Source: an uncultured Lentisphaeria bacterium (GTDB taxonomy: Bacteria; Verrucomicrobiota; Lentisphaeria; Victivallales; Victivallaceae). Taken from it: DNA of 64,000 nt. This document shows, piece after piece, positions 6,289-52,573 of the stretch (position 1 is its first letter; each line of letters starts with the position of its first letter). Made by a program: the position numbers and the translations under genes. Where the stretch lies: contig CASFVA010000025.1 in assembly GCA_949298075.1 (NCBI GenBank), positions 1 through 64,000 of the forward strand. The letters run 5' to 3'. Under the pieces are notes generated by a model, which ran no database searches, was not told where the DNA came from, and saw nothing but the letters and a program-made list of their open reading frames with translations.

Positions 6289-7715
6289 GATCTTGCACTC
6301 CTTTTATTTGATTTGCGATGTTCCGCACCACCGGCGGTCGACCGGCGGATGCTCTCGACCTTTTTGGGCCGGGCGCAGAGTGTGAGTTCAATCGCAACTC
6401 CGCTGAGGTCGAAAGCCGATCGCAGTTGATTCTTCAGATAAGTGAGGTAATGCGGCTGGGCCGCTTCCGGACGATTGACAAACAATTTGAACCGATGCGG
6501 ATTTTTTCCGGTCATCGAGGCATAGTACATTTTGAACGCCGCGGCGCCGCGCACCGGAGGGGGGGTACGTTCAAATGCCTCGGCGAGCATCCGGTTGAGA
6601 GCTCCGGTCGGAATGTCGCGCTCAAGGCGTTCGATTATACAGACAATTTCCCGGCACAGCGCCTCCAGGTTGGACTGTTCCCGGGCACTGATGAATTCCA
6701 CCGGCGCAAAGCCAAGCCCGGGCAGTGTCCGGCGCAGCTCCCCCGTCAGCTCCCGGGCGGGGATTCCCGGGCAGAGGTCGCACTTGTTGGCGGCGATGAC
6801 GCATGCTTTGCCGGCCTTTTGAATCAGTCCGGCGATTTTTCGGTCCTGTGCCGTCATGCCGGCGGCATCGGCTTCAACGACCATCAGGACCAGATCGGCA
6901 CGTTCGATGGCACTTTTAGCCCGCATTACGCTGAACAATTCGACCACGTTGTCCACTTTTGCTGTTTTGCGCAAACCGGCGGTATCCACCAGGACGACCG
7001 GACAGGTTTTGCCGGCTCCCCGCAGGATCAATTCAATGTCAATGGCGTCACGGGTAGTCCCGGCAATCGGACTGGTGGCCACCCGTTCGGTTCCCAGCAG
7101 TGCGTTTATCAGAGAGGATTTACCCACGTTGGGGCGACCGATTACTGCGATTTTCGCCCTGGGGGGAGGGCTGACCACAAGTTCACCGGCGGGCAGACGT
7201 CGGGTGACTTCGGCCAGCAGGGTGGCCAAACCGCCGCGGCGGAGACAGTCAATCGGATAGACGTTGTCAAAGCCGAATTGCAAAAATTCCGCAGCCTGGT
7301 CCCGCAGCGTCTGATCATCGCATTTGTTTACCGCGCAAATCACCGGTTTGCCGGACGCCCGCAGACGGGAAGCGATGTCAGCATCCAGGGGAGTTGGCCC
7401 GGCCTGAGCATCTCCGACGAAAATCAGAATGTCGGCGGCGGAAACCGCTGCCTCGACCTGGGTGGTGATTACGGCATCCCAATGGTCGGTTTTGCGTGAC
7501 TCGCCGCTCAGGGTTCCGAGACCTCCTGTGTCAATCAGGGTGAACCGCCGGCCGTTTTTGCTGACGGTGGCGGCCACCCGGTCCCGGGTTACTCCGCTCA
7601 TTTCGTGGACGATGGCAAGGCGGCGGCCAACCACCGCATTGAACAGCGAGGATTTGCCGACGTTGGGACGGCCGACAATAGCGACCGTGGGAAGATGGAT
7701 TCCGGCAGTGGACAT
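6285..7715 (-). CDS. der: Ribosome biogenesis GTPase Der (EngA)
   Basis: Essential double GTPase of 50S ribosome assembly; 476 residues is a normal length. The first G domain begins with VAIVGRPNVGKSSLFNAVVG near residue 12, with DTGG and NKCD motifs; the second begins with IAVIGRPNVGKSSLINALLG near residue 190, with DTAG and NKCDL. The C-terminal KH-like domain includes FKMYYASMTGKNPHRFKLFVN. The gene starts 15 bp after the pyrF stop and ends in an ATGA overlap with the downstream hypothetical gene, so the three are probably co-transcribed. Confidence 0.96.
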   Translation of the reverse strand: MSTAGIHLPTVAIVGRPNVGKSSLFNAVVGRRLAIVHEMSGVTRDRVAATVSKNGRRFTLIDTGGLGTLSGESRKTDHWDAVITTQVEAAVSAADILIFVGDAQAGPTPLDADIASRLRASGKPVICAVNKCDDQTLRDQAAEFLQFGFDNVYPIDCLRRGGLATLLAEVTRRLPAGELVVSPPPRAKIAVIGRPNVGKSSLINALLGTERVATSPIAGTTRDAIDIELILRGAGKTCPVVLVDTAGLRKTAKVDNVVELFSVMRAKSAIERADLVLMVVEADAAGMTAQDRKIAGLIQKAGKACVIAANKCDLCPGIPARELTGELRRTLPGLGFAPVEFISAREQSNLEALCREIVCIIERLERDIPTGALNRMLAEAFERTPPPVRGAAAFKMYYASMTGKNPHRFKLFVNRPEAAQPHYLTYLKNQLRSAFDLSGVAIELTLCARPKKVESIRRSTAGGAEHRKSNKRSARS

Positions 7716-43475: not shown

Positions 43476-44200
43476 ATGATAAACAAGCGTTTGTTTACGT
43501 TAATTGAGCTGCTGGTAGTGATTGCGATCATCGCCATCTTGGCGGGAATATTTTGCCGGCGTTGAACAAGGCGCGTGCCCGGGCCCAAACCGCATCCTGC
43601 CTGAATAACATGAAGCAGAACGGATTGGGTTTTGCCCAATATGGTGATGACAATCAGAGTATAGTGCCGTTGGCCTATTATCGGGATTCCGGTTCCGGCC
43701 GTACTTGGCTGAGATTTCTTCGCGGTGAAATCGACAATCATGACTGGAAGCATAAAACCCCGAGTTATATTCAGGGGACGGGGACCGGGGTTTGTCCGTC
43801 AATTCATCCATTCAAATATGGTGAAGATTCCACTGCTGTATACGGAGTGGTATCCACGTCTCCGGGGAATCTGCATGCCGATTATCGCAATACAGCGTAT
43901 TGCAACACCGATTATCTGACTTACCTTTTGCCGGCCAAGGCGAAGGGTCCGTCCCAATGGGTTGTGCTGAGCGACAGTCTCCGCCATTACAACAACTTGT
44001 GGACGATGGGGTGGGTTATGGCGCATAAACCCTCCGGGTCGACAGCTGGAATGTACTTTGTGCACAATGAACGCGCCAATTGGCTTTTTCTCGACGGCCA
44101 TGCCGAATCCTGCGCCGTGACGGATACGAAGCCTATGGAAATTTACCGGATTCAGCAGGTTTTTCTCGGCGAAGATTTGCTGTATGATGTCAATTATTAA
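43476..44200 (+). pseudogene. Pseudopilin (H-x9-DG type) interrupted by a one-base frameshift
   Basis: An ATG at 43476 with AAAGGGGG upstream begins [24 protein letters not shown], the prepilin leader and hydrophobic helix, but the frame ends at a TGA (43563-43565) after 29 codons. The rest of a normal pseudopilin (LPALNKARARAQTASCLNNMKQ through to DVNY, ending 44200) continues in another frame. The two frames join in a run of four T residues (43551-43554); one more T would restore a 242-residue protein. The C-terminal HNERANWLFLDGHAES contains the H-x9-DG box. Either the gene is dead, or this is a sequencing error, or the T run is slipped over by polymerase. The intact homologue is at 51815. 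Confidence 0.8.
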
Positions 44201-44512: not shown

Positions 44513-47500
44513 TCAGCCTTTACACTTTGCCGGCCACAATGGCTTCAACCACCTCCGCCAGTGTCTGCGGCGGCGCGGTTTGGCGGTGTCGTGTACAAAG
44601 ATGAAATATAGCGCCGGAATCACATACAGGGTCAGCAGCGAGGCTATCGACAGGCCGCCGACCACGCCCATGCCGCAGCTTGAACGCAACTCCGAACCCA
44701 GACCGGTTCCGAAAGCCATCGGCAGCATACCGGCCACCGAAGCGATGCTGGTCATCACGATGGGACGGAATTTCGATTCCGTGGCCAACAGCATGGCCCG
44801 GTGGGTGGTTTCGCCTTTTCTGACCAGGGCGGCACATTCGTCCATGATCAGAATCGCGTTGTTGACGACAATACCAATCATCATAACTCCGCCCAGCAAT
44901 CCCATCATGGACATGGACATCCCGGCCAGCCACAAGGTGGCGTACATGCCGAGAAAGCCCAGCGGAACCGTAAACATAATCAAAAACGGTCGGGTCCAGG
45001 ATTCCATGATGGCCGCAATCAGCAGGTAGGTGAGCAGGGTGGCCAAAATAATGACATGCACGAATTCTTCGGCGGTTTCATTCATGAATTCCACGTTGCC
45101 GCTCATTCTGACGCCGTACCCCGGCGGCAGCGCATCCTGCGCCATTCTGCCGATGGTGTTTGATACCGTTCCGAGAGCCATTCCCGGCGCGGTATTGGCG
45201 TAAAGCCACATGGTGCGGGCCTTGTCGTAACGATTGATCACCACCGGACGGGAGTCTTCGCGGATTTCAGCGAGTGCTTCCGCACTGAGCGGATTGTTGT
45301 CCTTGATTGCCGGTGCCGCCTGTCGGAGCTGCTCCTCGCCGTATTCCTTGCGGTTTTTCACCCGGATGTCAAAGGTCCGGGCTCCGGTCCGGTAGTCCCC
45401 GACTTCAATCCCATCCAGCGAACCGAGCAGATATTCGTAAAGTTCATTGGCGGAAATACCGAGATTCTGCAGAACCGTCCGGCGGGGGGTGATGTTGATG
45501 TTGGGTTTGCGTTCACGGCGGCTGGAATCGACGTCGCGGGTTATTCCCAGCGTCGGCAGTTTTTCCATGACCTCCATTTCCGCCTGCTCAAGGATGTCGA
45601 GGTCGGGGCCGTTCATCACGCAGCGGATTTCCGCCCCGCTGCCGCCGAACGTGGGCGGAATCGACAGGGTTATACGGCAGTTGTCGAGATAGGAGAGTTC
45701 TTCACGCAACATCGCCTGAAGGTCATCGATGGATTCCTTGCGCTCAAATTTGTCAGTGGTCCTCAGATTGATCTGGCCCAGATAGACCGCTGAACCGACC
45801 TGGCCGCGGGTACTGTCAGAGTCGCCGACTGAAATGGACATGCCGCGGATGAAATCAAATTTTTTGAGGTGATCGGCGGCTTCCTGCATCAATCTGGTAG
45901 TGGTGTCGAGGTTGTAGTTGGTCGGAAATTCAAATTTAATCCGAATCTCGCCCTGATCACAGAACGGCAGAAATGAAAGTCCCACCTGCGGAACAATCCA
46001 CAACGTGGTGGCAATGGCAGCTGCCAGAACCGCGATAATCAGGGAACGGGGATGACGGGCCGTCCACTCAATACTCCGGTTGAATTTCCGGCAAAGCCAG
46101 TCGTAGCCGCGATCCCACGGTACGAACATTTTCTGCAGCAAAGTCTGATTTTTCGCGTTCTCTCCAGTCGCTTTCCGCTTTTTCAGCAATACGCAGACCA
46201 GAATCGGAGTCAGAGTAAAGCTGATGAACAGCGACACCATGGTCGCCCCCACCATAACACCGGCGAACGGAACCATCATGCTGCCGATCCGGGTGGTCAT
46301 CATCATCACCGGCACGAATACCACCACATTGGTCAGAGCGCTCGCCGACACCGCCGCAATTACCTCGCCGGTGCCGCGTTCCGCCGCGGTTTTGATGTTT
46401 TCGCCGCGGTCGATGTGCTTGAAAATGTTTTCAATCACCACAATCGAGTTGGTAACCAGCACCCCCACTGAACACCCCAGCGAGAGCAGCGTCATGATGT
46501 TGAATGAATAATTGAAGTAGGCCATAACGGCAAAAGTCACGATCACCGAGATCGGCATGGAGACCATGACAATGAAAGTTGATCTCGGCTCGTGCAGAAA
46601 CAGAAACAGCAGCACTGCGGTCAGAATAATGCCGGTCATAATGCTGCTCCAGGCGTCGTCGACTGATGCCTGAATGAACGCGCCGGAGTCGGTGAACCAG
46701 ACCAGTTCCATACCGGTCGGCAGTTCGCCGTTGCGCTTCATGGATTCAAAGCGGTCCCGGATGCCGTTGATGACGGCGATGGCGTTTGCTTCGCCTTTCT
46801 TGATGATGCGGAACCTGGCGGCAGGCTGTCCGTTGACGTAGGCTTTGCTGCGGACCTCGCGGCTCATGAACTTAACGTCCGCCACATCGCGCAGGTAGAC
46901 CCGTTTATTCTGGAATTTTCCGATTTCCAGTGCCTTGATTTGTTCAAAATCCTTGAAATCTCCGTCAAACGTGACGTTTTTTTCACCCTTGTCAAACTGG
47001 ATGCGTCCCAAAGGTTCACGCACGTTGTTTTCCCGGAGTTTGCCGACCACGTCGGCAATGGAAAGATTCATGGCCGTGAGCTTTTCCCGGTCGATCAGCA
47101 CATGAATCTGCATTTCATTGGCACCGTAGACCCGGACTTCTCCCACGCCGGGAACCGAAGAAAAGCGGTCGGCAATGACGTCGTCCGCGTAGTCATAAAG
47201 ATCATCCTGGGTACGGTCACCGACCAGAAACGCCTGAACGACGGTGGTGGCGTTGGTGTCGATTTTGCGGATAGTGGGTTCATCGGCTCCATCGGGAAGA
47301 TCCTGGCGGATCCGGTTGATGGCTTCGCGGATGTCTGTTGCCGCAATGTCCACATCGGTGCCCATATTGAATTCCAGCTGGATACGGGCTTCATCCTCCA
47401 TGGATACGCTGGTGATATGTTTGATGCCGTCGAGCGAAGAAACCGCGTCCTCAATCCGCTTGACGACTTCGACTTCAATTTCCGTCGGACTGGCACCGTC

Positions 47501-47653
47501 GTATTCGCAGCGCACCAGCACCGTGGGAATTTCCATTTGCGGAAGCAGGTCGATGCTGATGTCCGGGTAGAGACTTGCCCCGATCATAACCAGCACGATG
47601 ATGAATGCCGTCATGGCAATCGGCCGTTGAACGGACCATTTGCTCAGAAACAT
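44513..47653 (-). CDS. RND efflux permease with altered proton-relay residues
   Basis: A 1046-residue AcrB-type inner-membrane transporter with 12 transmembrane helices and two large periplasmic loops. It follows its adaptor gene by 14 bp in an operon. In AcrB, TM4 carries Asp407-Asp408 in VDDAIVVVEN; here the aligned stretch is VLVTNSIVVIENI with Thr401-Asn402. In TM10 the AcrB Lys940 region KNAILIVEF reads NNAILIMDE here. Therefore both classical proton-relay positions are uncharged. It is probably still an efflux or export pump (antibiotics, lipids or other toxic molecules) but energised differently or by other residues. A TolC-like channel is not present in the window. Confidence 0.93.
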   Translation of the reverse strand: MFLSKWSVQRPIAMTAFIIVLVMIGASLYPDISIDLLPQMEIPTVLVRCEYDGASPTEIEVEVVKRIEDAVSSLDGIKHITSVSMEDEARIQLEFNMGTDVDIAATDIREAINRIRQDLPDGADEPTIRKIDTNATTVVQAFLVGDRTQDDLYDYADDVIADRFSSVPGVGEVRVYGANEMQIHVLIDREKLTAMNLSIADVVGKLRENNVREPLGRIQFDKGEKNVTFDGDFKDFEQIKALEIGKFQNKRVYLRDVADVKFMSREVRSKAYVNGQPAARFRIIKKGEANAIAVINGIRDRFESMKRNGELPTGMELVWFTDSGAFIQASVDDAWSSIMTGIILTAVLLFLFLHEPRSTFIVMVSMPISVIVTFAVMAYFNYSFNIMTLLSLGCSVGVLVTNSIVVIENIFKHIDRGENIKTAAERGTGEVIAAVSASALTNVVVFVPVMMMTTRIGSMMVPFAGVMVGATMVSLFISFTLTPILVCVLLKKRKATGENAKNQTLLQKMFVPWDRGYDWLCRKFNRSIEWTARHPRSLIIAVLAAAIATTLWIVPQVGLSFLPFCDQGEIRIKFEFPTNYNLDTTTRLMQEAADHLKKFDFIRGMSISVGDSDSTRGQVGSAVYLGQINLRTTDKFERKESIDDLQAMLREELSYLDNCRITLSIPPTFGGSGAEIRCVMNGPDLDILEQAEMEVMEKLPTLGITRDVDSSRRERKPNINITPRRTVLQNLGISANELYEYLLGSLDGIEVGDYRTGARTFDIRVKNRKEYGEEQLRQAAPAIKDNNPLSAEALAEIREDSRPVVINRYDKARTMWLYANTAPGMALGTVSNTIGRMAQDALPPGYGVRMSGNVEFMNETAEEFVHVIILATLLTYLLIAAIMESWTRPFLIMFTVPLGFLGMYATLWLAGMSMSMMGLLGGVMMIGIVVNNAILIMDECAALVRKGETTHRAMLLATESKFRPIVMTSIASVAGMLPMAFGTGLGSELRSSCGMGVVGGLSIASLLTLYVIPALYFIFVHDTAKPRRRRHWRRWLKPLWPAKCKG

Positions 47654-47667
47654 GAACTGCCCCTCCG

Positions 47668-48837
47668 TTAATTCTGGGGGTTCGGCCGGAGCAGCGACCC
47701 GTTGTTGACAAAGGTTTGCCCGGTGACGACGAAGCGTTCGGTCAGGATGTCCTGCGCGTTGACGATTTCGCAGTATTTGCCGTCAATGATCCCCCGCTCG
47801 ACGTCGTGGCTTTGGGCCCGCTTCTCCGGAGTAATCGCGTAGACGATGTACCGGTCGTTGGCCCGCAGCAGCAAGGCGTCAGCCGGCAGCCCGTAGGCTT
47901 CCTTTTCTTCGAGAATGAGGTTGAGATCGCACAGGGTTCCGCTGACCAGCGGGATGGATTCCGGAACCAGCACTTTGAGTTTGAAGGTCCGGCTTTCGGG
48001 GTCGATATTCGGAGCCTTATAGGTTACGACTCCTTCACCTTTGACTTCGCCGTCCAGCGCGAATTCAGCCGGGGTCCTGCCCGGTTCGATCAGTCCGTAG
48101 TAGATGGCGCTGATGTAGCAGATTACTTCAAGGGTTTTCTGGTTTTCCAGCTTGAGAATGTTCTGGCCTGTGCTGACGTATTCGTTCTCCTCCACGTATT
48201 TATCCGTAACAATGCAGTCAAAGGGCGCCTTAACCACGGAATCGTCGAGGTTTTTTCTGGCAATCGTCAGATTATCCTCCGCCTGCTTGAGCTGAGCTTC
48301 GGCATTGGCGATGGCGGCCCGGGCGTTTCTGACGTCGGTCTGAGCCTTTTTGTAATTGGTTTCATAAGTTTCAAAATCAGTCCGGCTGGTGGCTTTGGAC
48401 TGCCACAGGGTCAGAAAGCGCTCATAATCCTGGCGGGCCTTGCGTTCGGATATTTCCGCGTTTTCCAGTACAAATCCGGCGCTTTCCAGTTCAGCCTGTT
48501 TGACTTTGATTTCATTTTCCTGAACGGTGACCTGGTTTTTGAGAATCTGCCGGTCGATTCCGAACAGCACGTCCCCTTTTTTACGGGAATCACCCTCGTC
48601 CACCTTCAGCAGCTCAAGCGTTCCGCTGATTTTGGCGGAAATGGTTGCGTACTCCACCGGCCAGACAGTTCCCTGAACAGGTATCTGGCGGCGGAAAGTG
48701 CGTTTTTCCAACGGTGCCAGTGTGACTCGGATTTCCCGTTCCGCAGCCTTATTGCCGTTATCATCCTTGCAGCCGCAAACTCCACAGACCATTCCAGCCA
48801 ACACACAACAGGCCGGCAGCCACCTTGCAAAATTCAT
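47668..48837 (-). CDS. RND efflux periplasmic adaptor, probable lipoprotein
   Basis: A 389-residue membrane fusion protein. The signal peptide ends VCGVCGC with a likely lipidated Cys23. The split lipoyl motif is formed by VWPVEYATISAKISGTLELLKVDEGD and the later DSVVKAPFDCIVTDKYVEENEYVSTGQ; between them is a coiled coil (about residues 105-190). It links the RND permease to an outer-membrane channel. It heads the two-gene pump operon. The tandem TTTTGAC repeats at 48950-48968 lie about 115-130 bp upstream, after the histidine kinase gene. Confidence 0.9.
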   Translation of the reverse strand: MNFARWLPACCVLAGMVCGVCGCKDDNGNKAAEREIRVTLAPLEKRTFRRQIPVQGTVWPVEYATISAKISGTLELLKVDEGDSRKKGDVLFGIDRQILKNQVTVQENEIKVKQAELESAGFVLENAEISERKARQDYERFLTLWQSKATSRTDFETYETNYKKAQTDVRNARAAIANAEAQLKQAEDNLTIARKNLDDSVVKAPFDCIVTDKYVEENEYVSTGQNILKLENQKTLEVICYISAIYYGLIEPGRTPAEFALDGEVKGEGVVTYKAPNIDPESRTFKLKVLVPESIPLVSGTLCDLNLILEEKEAYGLPADALLLRANDRYIVYAITPEKRAQSHDVERGIIDGKYCEIVNAQDILTERFVVTGQTFVNNGSLLRPNPQN

Positions 48838-48949
48838 TAAAATTTGTCCCCGCGTTTTTCAATGATTATCTGATTTTTGAATCGCATCTTCATTCGCCGC
48901 CCAAGCGGCTACATTTTATAAATTAGCATTGAAAAGCCCGGTTACAACG

Positions 48950-48968
48950 ATTTTGACGGAATTTTGAC
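48950..48968 (-). promoter_or_regulatory. Tandem PhoB/OmpR-type box upstream of the efflux operon
   Basis: ATTTTGAC occurs at 48950-48957 and again at 48961-48968, an exact 11 bp period, the spacing at which OmpR/PhoB-family response regulators bind. On the minus strand it reads GTCAAAAT-TCC-GTCAAAAT, similar to half of a PHO box. A TATAAA (48920-48915) lies 30 bp downstream. Confidence 0.5.
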
Positions 48969-48988
48969 AAAATACTGATTTTTGCCCG

Positions 48989-50755
48989 TCAAAGCGGCAG
49001 CCTGAGATGAAACTCCGAACCACGCCCCGCCTCGGAATTGAGTATGACCGTTCCGCGGTGGTACAGCGCAACCCGCTTGACAATGGTCAGTCCGATGCCG
49101 CTGCCGTTTTTTCGGCGATTGCCGGTGGGAACCCGGTAAAAACGGTTAAACACCCGGTCCTGATGTTCAGGCGGAATGCCGCAACCGTAATCTTTGACAA
49201 TCAGATCAATACAATTGAGTTGCAAATTCCGGACCGCCGCCAGTTCTATGCGTTGAGTTCCGCTGTGAATAACCGCGTTGATCACCAGGTTGTCCAGCGC
49301 CTGCTGCAAAAGCTGGACATCACCCCGGAATTCTGCCGAGTCACATTCGGTTATGGCGATTTCAATGCCGGCGGCTTCGGCCGAACTCCGGCAGACCTCC
49401 TCGACGGCACGGAGCAGCGAAAGGGGAAAGACCGGCATGAAATTGTGCAGCTTTACCGGATTTTCCTCATCCAGTGAGGCCAAGGTTAAGAAATTCAGCA
49501 GCAGTGTGTTGAGTCGCTCGGATTGCGAAGCGAGTGTGGCGATGCACCGCTCTTTGTATTCGGCGTTGTCCAGGGCGCCACCGCGTATGGCGTCCACAGC
49601 TCCGACAATGCCGGTCAGAGGAGTTTTCATTTCGTGGGAAATGGCGGCGATGAATTCGCGGTGCGACGCCTCCAGCCGGCTGATTTCTGTGATGTCCGTA
49701 GCTGAGATCAGCAGAAAGCGGTGACCATCCCGCATGAAAGTCGCCGCATTGACCAGCAGAATATATTCCCGGCGGCCGCGCTGGAAATGGATTTTTTCCG
49801 CATGAATGCCTGGATTGTCCGTTCTGACAATGTATTCCCGGAGCTGGGGCGGGCAGTCCGGCGGATTAGTTTCGTCAGCTGTTTTACCCGGAAAAAACAA
49901 TGTTTCAGCGGAGTGGTTCCAGCGTACCACCCGGCCGTCAGCGTCAAGCAGAAGAATAGCTTCGCTCAAAGCGTTCAGCATGGTTTCACGCTCGTTGGTT
50001 CCGTCCCGCAGTGATATGATCTGTTTTTTCAGCTGCTCGGTCAGAGATTGCAGGCAGAGGGCGATTTCCCGGATCAACCCGTGTCTGGGAATATAAACTG
50101 GATTGTCCAGTTCGCCGGCCGCAATCCGGGAGGTGCTGGCAAACAAACGGTTCAACGGCAGTCTGATGCGCTGGAAAAAATAGGCAGTCAGCAATAGTGT
50201 CGCAACAATTCCGATCGCCGCCAGGCTCCAGACCATCCGGCGGGTTTGGCGCATGAGCAGTGTCATGCTGTTGCATTTGGAAGCCATCACCAGCACATAG
50301 TCCTGATTGTTGGCCTTGAAACGTATGGAGTGGTAGATCATGTAGGATTCCAGCGAGCGGTCAAACTTGATCAATACGTTTTCATCATGGTTTTGTTTGA
50401 AAAAACCTTTGATTTCGGGTTCCCGGATGTGTTCGGACAAGTATTGCGGCGCCCCCGGGGTTTCCATTACCGCCCCCCGTCCTCGTGCGATAATTTTGAC
50501 AATCATTGGATTGGAGCCTTTCCCCGAAGCGAGCAGCCGATGCATTTTATCCAGCTGTTTGGACTCCAGAATATCCTGCAGGGCCCGCATCAGCATGGCA
50601 TTATTCTGCCGGGTCTCCTTTTCGACTTCTCCGGCATAGGCATTTTGAAAATCGGAAAATTGGATGTTGAGCAGAATGATTGCCAAAACGATGACTACCA
50701 CGATAATTGCCGGAACAATCAACAGTGAGACATCCCGAAGATCAATGCGATTCAT
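48989..50755 (-). CDS. Membrane sensor histidine kinase (PhoR-like)
   Basis: A 588-residue sensor. TM1 spans residues 10-31 and TM2 about 174-194, enclosing a 140-residue periplasmic sensing domain of no recognised type. A HAMP-like segment (195-245) leads to a PAS domain (about 258-360, LNALSEAILLLDADGRVVRWNHSAE). The dimerisation domain carries His374 in FIAAISHEMKTPLTGIVGA. The ATPase has NLVINAVIHS, KDYGCGIPPEHQDRVFNRFYR and GSGIGLTIVKR. It lies 6 bp downstream of its regulator gene. The PAS-containing layout is that of PhoR, but phosphate sensing cannot be assumed. Confidence 0.93.
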   Translation of the reverse strand: MNRIDLRDVSLLIVPAIIVVVIVLAIILLNIQFSDFQNAYAGEVEKETRQNNAMLMRALQDILESKQLDKMHRLLASGKGSNPMIVKIIARGRGAVMETPGAPQYLSEHIREPEIKGFFKQNHDENVLIKFDRSLESYMIYHSIRFKANNQDYVLVMASKCNSMTLLMRQTRRMVWSLAAIGIVATLLLTAYFFQRIRLPLNRLFASTSRIAAGELDNPVYIPRHGLIREIALCLQSLTEQLKKQIISLRDGTNERETMLNALSEAILLLDADGRVVRWNHSAETLFFPGKTADETNPPDCPPQLREYIVRTDNPGIHAEKIHFQRGRREYILLVNAATFMRDGHRFLLISATDITEISRLEASHREFIAAISHEMKTPLTGIVGAVDAIRGGALDNAEYKERCIATLASQSERLNTLLLNFLTLASLDEENPVKLHNFMPVFPLSLLRAVEEVCRSSAEAAGIEIAITECDSAEFRGDVQLLQQALDNLVINAVIHSGTQRIELAAVRNLQLNCIDLIVKDYGCGIPPEHQDRVFNRFYRVPTGNRRKNGSGIGLTIVKRVALYHRGTVILNSEAGRGSEFHLRLPL

Positions 50756-50761
50756 ACGGTT

Positions 50762-51445
50762 TTACTCTCCTGCGATGCGGTAGCCGACTCCGCGCACGGT
50801 TTCAATGCGGTTGGCCCACTTGCCGAGCTTGCGGCGCAAATTGACCATGTGCATGTCAATGGCCCGTGCCGTGACAGTGTAATTGCCGCCTTTAACTTCG
50901 CGGATAATCTGGTTGCGGGTGAACACCCGACCGGGGTTGGAGGCCAGCAGGGTCAGGGTCTTAAACTCATCCGCCGTTAGCACCAGCGGCAGGTTGTCAA
51001 GCAGGGCACGGTGGGAATCGGTATTTATGGTCAGCTCGCCGAGACGGATTTCCGTCGGCCCCGCCATGGCGGTTTTACGGCGCAGTTGAACGGCAATCCG
51101 GGCAGCCAGGACTTTGCTGCTGTAAGGTTTGGTAATATAATCGTCAGCTCCGATTTCCAACCCCAGAACAATGTCGTTTTCCTCCCCTTTGGCCGTAAGA
51201 ATAATAATTGGAATGTCTGAGAGGGAGGGAGTGTTTTTCAGATTTCGGCAGACGGTCAGACCGTCAATGCCGGGCAACATGATATCGAGCAGAATTAAAT
51301 CAGGATGCAAGCGGGCCGCCAGTTCGAGTCCCTCTTCTCCGCTGGTGGCGCAAAATACCTGCGAGTAGCCATTCATGTTGAGATTCATTTTCGTCATGTC
51401 GCAGATCGAGGCATCGTCTTCGATCATCAGAATTTTCTGGCTCAT
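50762..51445 (-). CDS. Response regulator, OmpR/PhoB family
   Basis: A 227-residue regulator. The receiver domain has the acidic EDD pocket near residues 9-11, phospho-acceptor Asp54 in LILLDIMLPGIDGL, and KPYSSKVLAARI with the conserved Lys. The C-terminal winged helix (about 130-227) includes GRVFTRNQIIREVKGGNYTVTARAIDMHMVNLRRKLG, the recognition helix and wing. A promoter (51531-51559) serves this gene and the kinase gene. A tandem repeat of the right spacing in front of the efflux operon makes that operon a likely target. Confidence 0.95.
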   Translation of the reverse strand: MSQKILMIEDDASICDMTKMNLNMNGYSQVFCATSGEEGLELAARLHPDLILLDIMLPGIDGLTVCRNLKNTPSLSDIPIIILTAKGEENDIVLGLEIGADDYITKPYSSKVLAARIAVQLRRKTAMAGPTEIRLGELTINTDSHRALLDNLPLVLTADEFKTLTLLASNPGRVFTRNQIIREVKGGNYTVTARAIDMHMVNLRRKLGKWANRIETVRGVGYRIAGE

Positions 51446-51760: not shown

Positions 51761-51814
51761 ATTCATGTACCTTATGCAATAAAAACATAACATTCAACCC
51801 TTTCGGTGCTGATT

Positions 51815-52573
51815 ATGCAGAAAAAGACAAAGCATTTCACTTTGATTGAACTTCTGGTGGTTATTGCGATCATCGCCATCCTGGCCGGCATGCTTTTGCC
51901 GGCGCTGCAGAAGGCCAGGTCGCGTTCATTGTCGACCAAATGTATCGGCAATCTAAAACAGATCGGGATGGCATTCAATATGTATGCCGATGCCAACAAC
52001 GGGACGATTCCAGTGGTTTACAATCTCAATGGCGGAGGCACCAAAATTGTATACGCCATGTATTTTCTGACTGGATACAATTACGGCGGCTATGATTTTC
52101 AGAATGTCAGATACATCCCGACGACGGTGGTTGAATGTCCCGTTGAAAATTCGGAAAATTCACGTTCCAAACTGCAAACTCAGGGCAAATGCGATAACGG
52201 CACCTATGGATTGCGGGCGAACAATCTGCCGTCCAGTTTTTACGGCCGGAAGATTACTGAATGGTTTGACACGTCATCAGTTGATGGAGTCAACAGCTAC
52301 ATGATCCGGACCGGGAAGATATATCGGCCTGCGGACTGGTATGTTTCGGCTGACTCCTGGAGCATTAATATGAAACGGCAGGCCTGTGCACTGAAACTTA
52401 AAGACTCTTCCAGCAGCGGTTCGGACGGGGCGTTGTGGATGGTACATGGCAACCGGGCCAATATGCAGTTCGGTGACGGTCACGTCGAAAGCGTGGCCCC
52501 CGGAGATTCCAAACTTGAAGAAAATGGTTTTCAGGTATATTACGATGAGTCCAAGAACGTGGTTCTGATCTGA
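51815..52573 (+). CDS. Pseudopilin with H-x9-DG C-terminus
   Basis: A 252-residue type II secretion-like pseudopilin. The ATG at 51815 starts [20 protein letters not shown], a prepilin peptidase site and hydrophobic helix, then [30 protein letters not shown]. The C-terminal [16 protein letters not shown] is the H-x9-DG box. In Lentisphaerota and Planctomycetota such proteins are numerous and thought to build envelope fibres tied to macromolecule uptake. No Shine-Dalgarno site precedes the ATG. The lyase gene lies 54 bp downstream, in the same transcription direction, so the two may act together. Confidence 0.92.

Follow-up and report, generated by a model that had tools for sequence, protein, structure and literature searches.

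A conserved array of TCA half-sites, repeated every 11 bp, precedes an RND efflux pump operon in an uncultured Lentisphaeria bacterium. Comparative analysis makes it very likely that this element is the activator site of an OmpR/PhoB-family two-component system that is dedicated to the pump and encoded beside it. The predicted control circuit is of a known kind; what is new is its mapping in a group of bacteria that has received little study. No literature on such control in Victivallaceae-type Lentisphaeria was found among open-licence papers, and the analysis supplies a computed regulator-site pair for these organisms.

The window analyzed here is the whole stretch of 64,000 nucleotides, part of contig C25 of a 2.33-Mb genome in 75 contigs. 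Four co-directional genes on its minus strand encode, in order, a response regulator, a sensor histidine kinase, an RND periplasmic adaptor and an RND permease, with a 151-bp gap separating kinase from adaptor (Table 1). The locus thus combines a receiver and winged-helix regulator and a HisKA kinase with adjacent genes for an RND adaptor and permease, as in AdeRS-like arrangements. The adaptor and permease share an operon, as expected for an RND tripartite pump. This operon lacks an outer-membrane factor, and TolC-type (OEP) matches are found only on contigs C69 and C36. The best NCBIfam match of the permease is RND_permease_2, at 657 of 1250 bits and under its cut-off. Genes at 51806-52573 and 43553-44200 flank the operon; the former encodes an N-terminal methylation (pilin-like) motif, and the latter is similar by eye. 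There are zero Rfam matches within the window.

An AlphaFold2 model of the kinase (mean pLDDT 75.4, pTM 0.44) has WalK as its best Foldseek match. With moderate confidence, the protein can be modelled as a PAS-like extracytoplasmic segment (approximately residues 65-160) within a general layout resembling that of WalK. Neither the structure model nor the fold search gave a clue to the sensed signal.

Table 1. Features of the pump locus and its predicted regulatory region, in window coordinates.
Feature	Position	Strand	Details
RND permease gene (HAE-1-like multidrug type)	44513..47653	-	Pfam ACR_tran 754.6 bits
RND periplasmic adaptor (MFP) gene	47668..48837	-	Pfam HlyD_3/HlyD_D23; NCBIfam RND_mfp 151.1 bits, cut-off 94.9
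Promoter-like elements	48920..48947	-	-35 TTGTAA, 16-bp spacer, extended -10
Extended -10 TGCTAATTT	48928-48920	-	G56, T58, A59 and T63 invariant in 10/10 aligned loci
-35 TTGTAA	48947-48942	-	TTG invariant in 10/10 aligned loci
Fourth, degenerate register (GTA/GCA), merging into -35	48945-48943	-	Alignment of 10 loci
TCA half-sites 1, 2, 3	48978-48976, 48967-48965, 48956-48954	-	Alignment of 10 loci
Repeat as first described (half-sites 2 and 3 of box)	48950..48968		Reads GTCAAAATTCCGTCAAAAT on minus strand
Regulator box (predicted)	48937..48982	-	Three TCA half-sites, 11-bp spacing; alignments of 10 and 17 loci
Sensor histidine kinase gene	48989..50755	-	N-terminal membrane helix, PAS-like extracytoplasmic region, PAS, HisKA, HATPase
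OmpR/PhoB-family response regulator gene, proposed box binder	50762..51445	-	Response_reg + Trans_reg_C

A sequence-only reading of the window had pointed to an exact repeat of 11-bp period between the kinase gene and the pump operon. The sequence ATTTTGACGGAATTTTGAC is indeed present at 48950-48968 with zero mismatches, and it falls within the 151-bp gap. The two copies are real, but the functional strand is the minus strand and the element is longer than was described, comprising three or four half-sites with a promoter that reaches to position ~48920. The bare repeat is unremarkable over 64 kb, since about 1.1 exact 8-mer tandems of period 11 are expected from composition and two are seen, the other being ACCGGCGG at 6330. 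Inside the gap alone, ~0.004 are expected. When three or fewer mismatches are allowed, the 19-bp pattern has four matches in place of the 0.62 expected in shuffles. Exact GTCAAAA-N4-GTCAAAA occurs once in the whole 2.33-Mb genome, and its relatives with two or fewer mismatches are not enriched genome-wide (20 matches versus 35 for a reversed control). Pattern counts over the genome are uninformative when taken alone.

The same reading saw no other PHO-box-like spacing in the window. The repeat is the window's only GTCA-N7-GTCA, and the central 18 bp of the box rank first among 127,966 window 18-mers, at 16.2 bits with the next best at 13.1, when scored with a matrix of 58 E. coli PhoB sites (E. 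coli median 16.5 bits). TGTCA direct repeats at 11-bp spacing, as in a PHO-box-type operator, are present. A sequence-only model (R1) derived from the ten family loci described below gives the box 49.2 bits and the next best site in the window 9.7. Promoter-like elements adjoin the box. The -10 hexamer TAATTT has an upstream TG, and the extended -10 ends 83 bp before the adaptor gene; the predicted transcription start is near 48913. A built-in sigma-70 scan called no promoter in 48700-49100.

The box is conserved in relatives that carry the same regulator and kinase. A scan of genome contigs with the kinase recovered only three true relatives and three remote kinases, and a search of 78 genomes of the family yielded nine orthologues besides the kinase of the window, with 54-62% identity. 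Inspection of all ten regulator-kinase pairs shows that the adaptor directly follows the kinase in nine of ten loci. The same block, TCA-N8-TCA-N8-TCA-N8-G(C/T)AA followed by an extended -10, lies upstream of the pump in all ten. These loci align with no gap over 70 bp, and 23 of 74 columns are invariant. The invariant columns include all three TCA triplets, TTG in the -35 and four positions of TGnTAnnnT (G, T, A and the final T). Eight more kinase orthologues (58-64% identity) were found in a second family when 137 genomes of the order were searched. Although this family was held out from R1, the box is found between kinase and adaptor in all seven testable loci, at 31.4-42.4 bits; the eighth kinase contig ends within the kinase gene, so its pump is not reached. 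Thus, the repeat, which the earlier reading had proposed to look for upstream of orthologous pumps, is present in all ten family loci and all seven testable loci of the second family. The pump promoter carries a direct repeat of ~11-bp period, conserved together with the pair, as looked for in AdeRS-like arrangements. The best PhoB-matrix site over the 17 loci scores 8.6-17.6 bits and, in 16 loci, coincides with the central repeat.

Core columns 3-39 of the box have 78.7% pairwise identity over 17 of the 18 loci (the box contig of G133, C260, was left out), whereas the promoter spacer has 36.1%. The permease gene, compared in 15 of the 18 genomes, has 49.6% identity at its four-fold sites, below that of the box core. 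Because it is kept almost letter for letter across relatives that have the pair, the box is very probably the docking site of the neighboring regulator, as predicted from these alignments.

The distribution of the box follows that of the pair. The orthologous kinase is present in 18 of the 137 genomes (E <= 2.3e-179), and strong R1 matches, at 31.4-55.2 bits, occur in exactly those 18, G133 included, in a scan whose strict filters can lose weak sites. One further match, in G092 (20.6 bits, E 9.7e-4 for one genome), looks like chance because ~0.13 such matches are expected over 137 genomes. Within the 78 family genomes, the tenth match scores 44.9 bits and the next ~19. In one genome (G075), the pump on contig C5 is unlinked from the pair on contig C20, and the box still precedes the pump; the pair is followed there by a rubrerythrin-like gene (by eye).

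Pumps of family genomes without the pair lack the element. Sixty such genomes have a permease match with E <= 1e-100, and 42 loci were drawn from them, the rest being fragments or more distant. The triple box is found in none of these 42 loci, and R1 has zero matches upstream of the adaptor. A single TCA-N8-TCA occurs somewhere in the ~240-260 bp examined in six of the 42. In two genomes (G046 and G051), TCA-N8-TCA precedes the adaptor gene by a similar distance and there is no R1 match; these pairs are possibly decayed boxes. A 12.9-bit R1 match in G021 was rejected as a box since it falls within the adaptor gene.

In a 58-row permease tree that left out G021 and G133, the box label needs two changes. 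A single origin of box-bearing pumps is compatible with this tree, and G008 may represent a loss inside the box-bearing clade. Since no more than one or two gains or losses have to be assumed for this tree, the split of 18 against 119 genomes reflects few independent events. The constraint on the box core and the box retained in G075 are stronger evidence than co-occurrence. The earlier proposal that the pump is controlled by the neighboring two-component system is strengthened as a prediction by conservation, by tracking with the pair over 137 genomes, and by persistence of the box when the two are unlinked. As a separate observation, the pump of the window genome clusters with pumps from another family (f8) and from g18/g3. 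Other genomes labelled with its genus have pumps on a different branch and lack an orthologous kinase pair. The grouping points to horizontal transfer, or else to a genus assignment or bin that should be checked.

The pair had been described as PhoR/PhoB-like. The likeness stands, but the phosphate PhoBR of this genome is a different pair, located beside pst. The window genome encodes four PhoB-like regulators with full-length matches, one of them in a pst-phoU-phoB-phoR cluster on contig C26. The pump-linked regulator scores 218.6 bits against NCBIfam PhoB (cut-off 296.2) and the kinase 196.3 bits against NCBIfam PhoR (cut-off 334.2), and neither passes. The PhoB cut-off discriminates weakly, because no match in this genome passes it; the pst-linked one also falls short, at 244.2. 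Regulators of the pump type and their kinases, 18 of each, form their own clades, each with 100/100 support, apart from ten others compared, by a method that carries a long-branch warning. The pump-linked pair is neither beside pst or phoU nor in the clade of the pst-linked copies. Phosphate control is unlikely because of this separation from the PhoB/PhoR of the same genome, and linkage, co-occurrence and family membership make the neighboring regulator the best candidate binder.

Three other explanations for the box can be weighed against this one. A chance repeat or neutral relic might be imagined in a gap that is AT-rich (GC 0.377 versus 0.559 for the window), given that about one exact tandem of this kind is expected per window. 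Such an origin is extremely improbable, since it is contradicted by gapless conservation over two families next to a spacer that is not conserved, and by a box identity above that of four-fold sites. Rather improbable is a classical PHO box that would place the pump in the Pho regulon of the same cell. The genome does have a pst-linked PhoB/PhoR pair, and the central 18 bp score like an average E. coli PhoB site. However, the box follows the neighboring pair, and three genomes (G008, G009 and G068) that have PhoBR-like kinases (31-33% identity) and the pump without this pair are boxless, so that the box is not associated with a phosphate-type PhoB by itself. The recognition helix also differs, reading RAIDMH in 18 of 18 pump-linked regulators and R(S/A)(I/V)DVQ in 10 of 10 other PhoB-like regulators. 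Four regions upstream of pstS (L051-L054) carry repeats that are TAACA-like, not TGTCA, with a clear 11-bp period in three (by eye). In this group, such repeats possibly serve the pst-linked PhoB as PHO boxes.

It is also unlikely, although less so, that the neighboring regulator binds the box as a repressor or at a dual site. The site touches the -35, and steric blocking would be possible. For PhoB, a dual role is described in which site position sets the effect (PMC10294691). Against this, the -35 is poor and paired with an extended -10, and the repeats lie upstream of it, as is usual where a promoter is activated. Because repression occurs in the PhoB family, activation at the pump promoter is inferred from position.

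Under activation by the neighboring regulator, the kinase would sense an envelope signal and phosphorylate the regulator. The OmpR/PhoB family binds DNA head to tail, and regulator protomers would occupy the TCA half-sites in this manner, one every 11 bp or approximately one helical turn. Bound next to the weak -35 and extended -10, the regulator would recruit RNA polymerase and thereby turn on transcription of the adaptor-permease operon. The pair itself would be transcribed from its own box-less promoter, without feedback through the box. In 18 of 18 genomes, the 144-200 bp examined before the regulator gene are without a box, and consequently there is no sign here of autoregulation, which is common among systems of this kind. 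Most genomes show TTGACA or TTGCAA at -35 distance in this region (by eye), and in G075 a single TCA-N8-TCA lies on the other strand.

The nearest known design is AdeRS-AdeABC of Acinetobacter baumannii, in which an OmpR-family regulator and a kinase are likewise encoded beside an RND pump operon (PMC10052836, PMC11892822, PMC5947904). AdeR is reported to bind an intercistronic direct repeat of 10 bp with a 1-bp gap (PMC10052836, PMC11892822), and the box shares both this 11-bp period and a location in the spacer before the adaptor gene, with binding known for AdeR and predicted here. In contrast to the divergent pair and pump of that system, the four genes described here are co-directional, with the box between kinase and adaptor, and pair and pump need not be linked. 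The half-site is AAGTGTGGAG in two copies there, and TGTCA-like in three or four copies here.

E. coli PhoB sites are described as TGTCA-N6-TGTCA direct repeats (PMC10294691). The box shares their 11-bp spacing and scores at about the E. coli median, but it adds a third and a degenerate fourth half-site followed by a recognizable -35. Its target is an efflux operon, and its proposed regulator falls under the NCBIfam PhoB cut-off and is not pst-linked. E. coli PhoB is also reported to bind a TGTCA repeat between cusR and cusC, a two-component regulator gene and an RND pump gene (PMC10294691). The DzrR-DesABC system of Dickeya provides another parallel, in that an OmpR-family regulator, as predicted here, acts directly on an RND operon; it does so via two direct repeats (PMC10052836). 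Its repeat is CTCCAT, however, and its activity is described as likely phosphorylation-independent (PMC10052836).

A more specific proposal is offered tentatively. The PhoB/PhoR-like pair could be the private switch of one pump, with one strong site per genome and an array of three to four half-sites whose last register merges into the -35. Divergence from the phosphate PhoB of the same cell in both helix (DMH versus DVQ) and half-site (TGTCA versus TAACA) would then insulate two close paralogues, and transfer of the module between families is a further possibility. With two paralogous PhoB-like regulators whose predicted sites differ, a single genome offers a ready comparison for specificity residues.

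Eight weaker R1 matches, at 13.9-19 bits, are found in the ten carriers. Five were read in context and are unproven as further targets. The match in G000 lies inside a gene, and a second match in G073, close to an end of contig C10, overlaps an open reading frame. In G075 (L171:3491-3514), an intergenic TGTCA-N6-GGTCA with two half-sites (18.1 bits) lies ~150 bp before a gene for a 224-aa secreted-looking protein and is a possible second target. In G073 (C51; L169:3884-3913) and G074 (C2; L170:3514-3543), a TGTTA-type triple repeat of 11-bp period precedes the gene for a small coiled-coil-like protein. It is followed by TTGCAT and a -10-like element, and is possibly a second promoter of the pump-box type or a phosphate-PhoB site.
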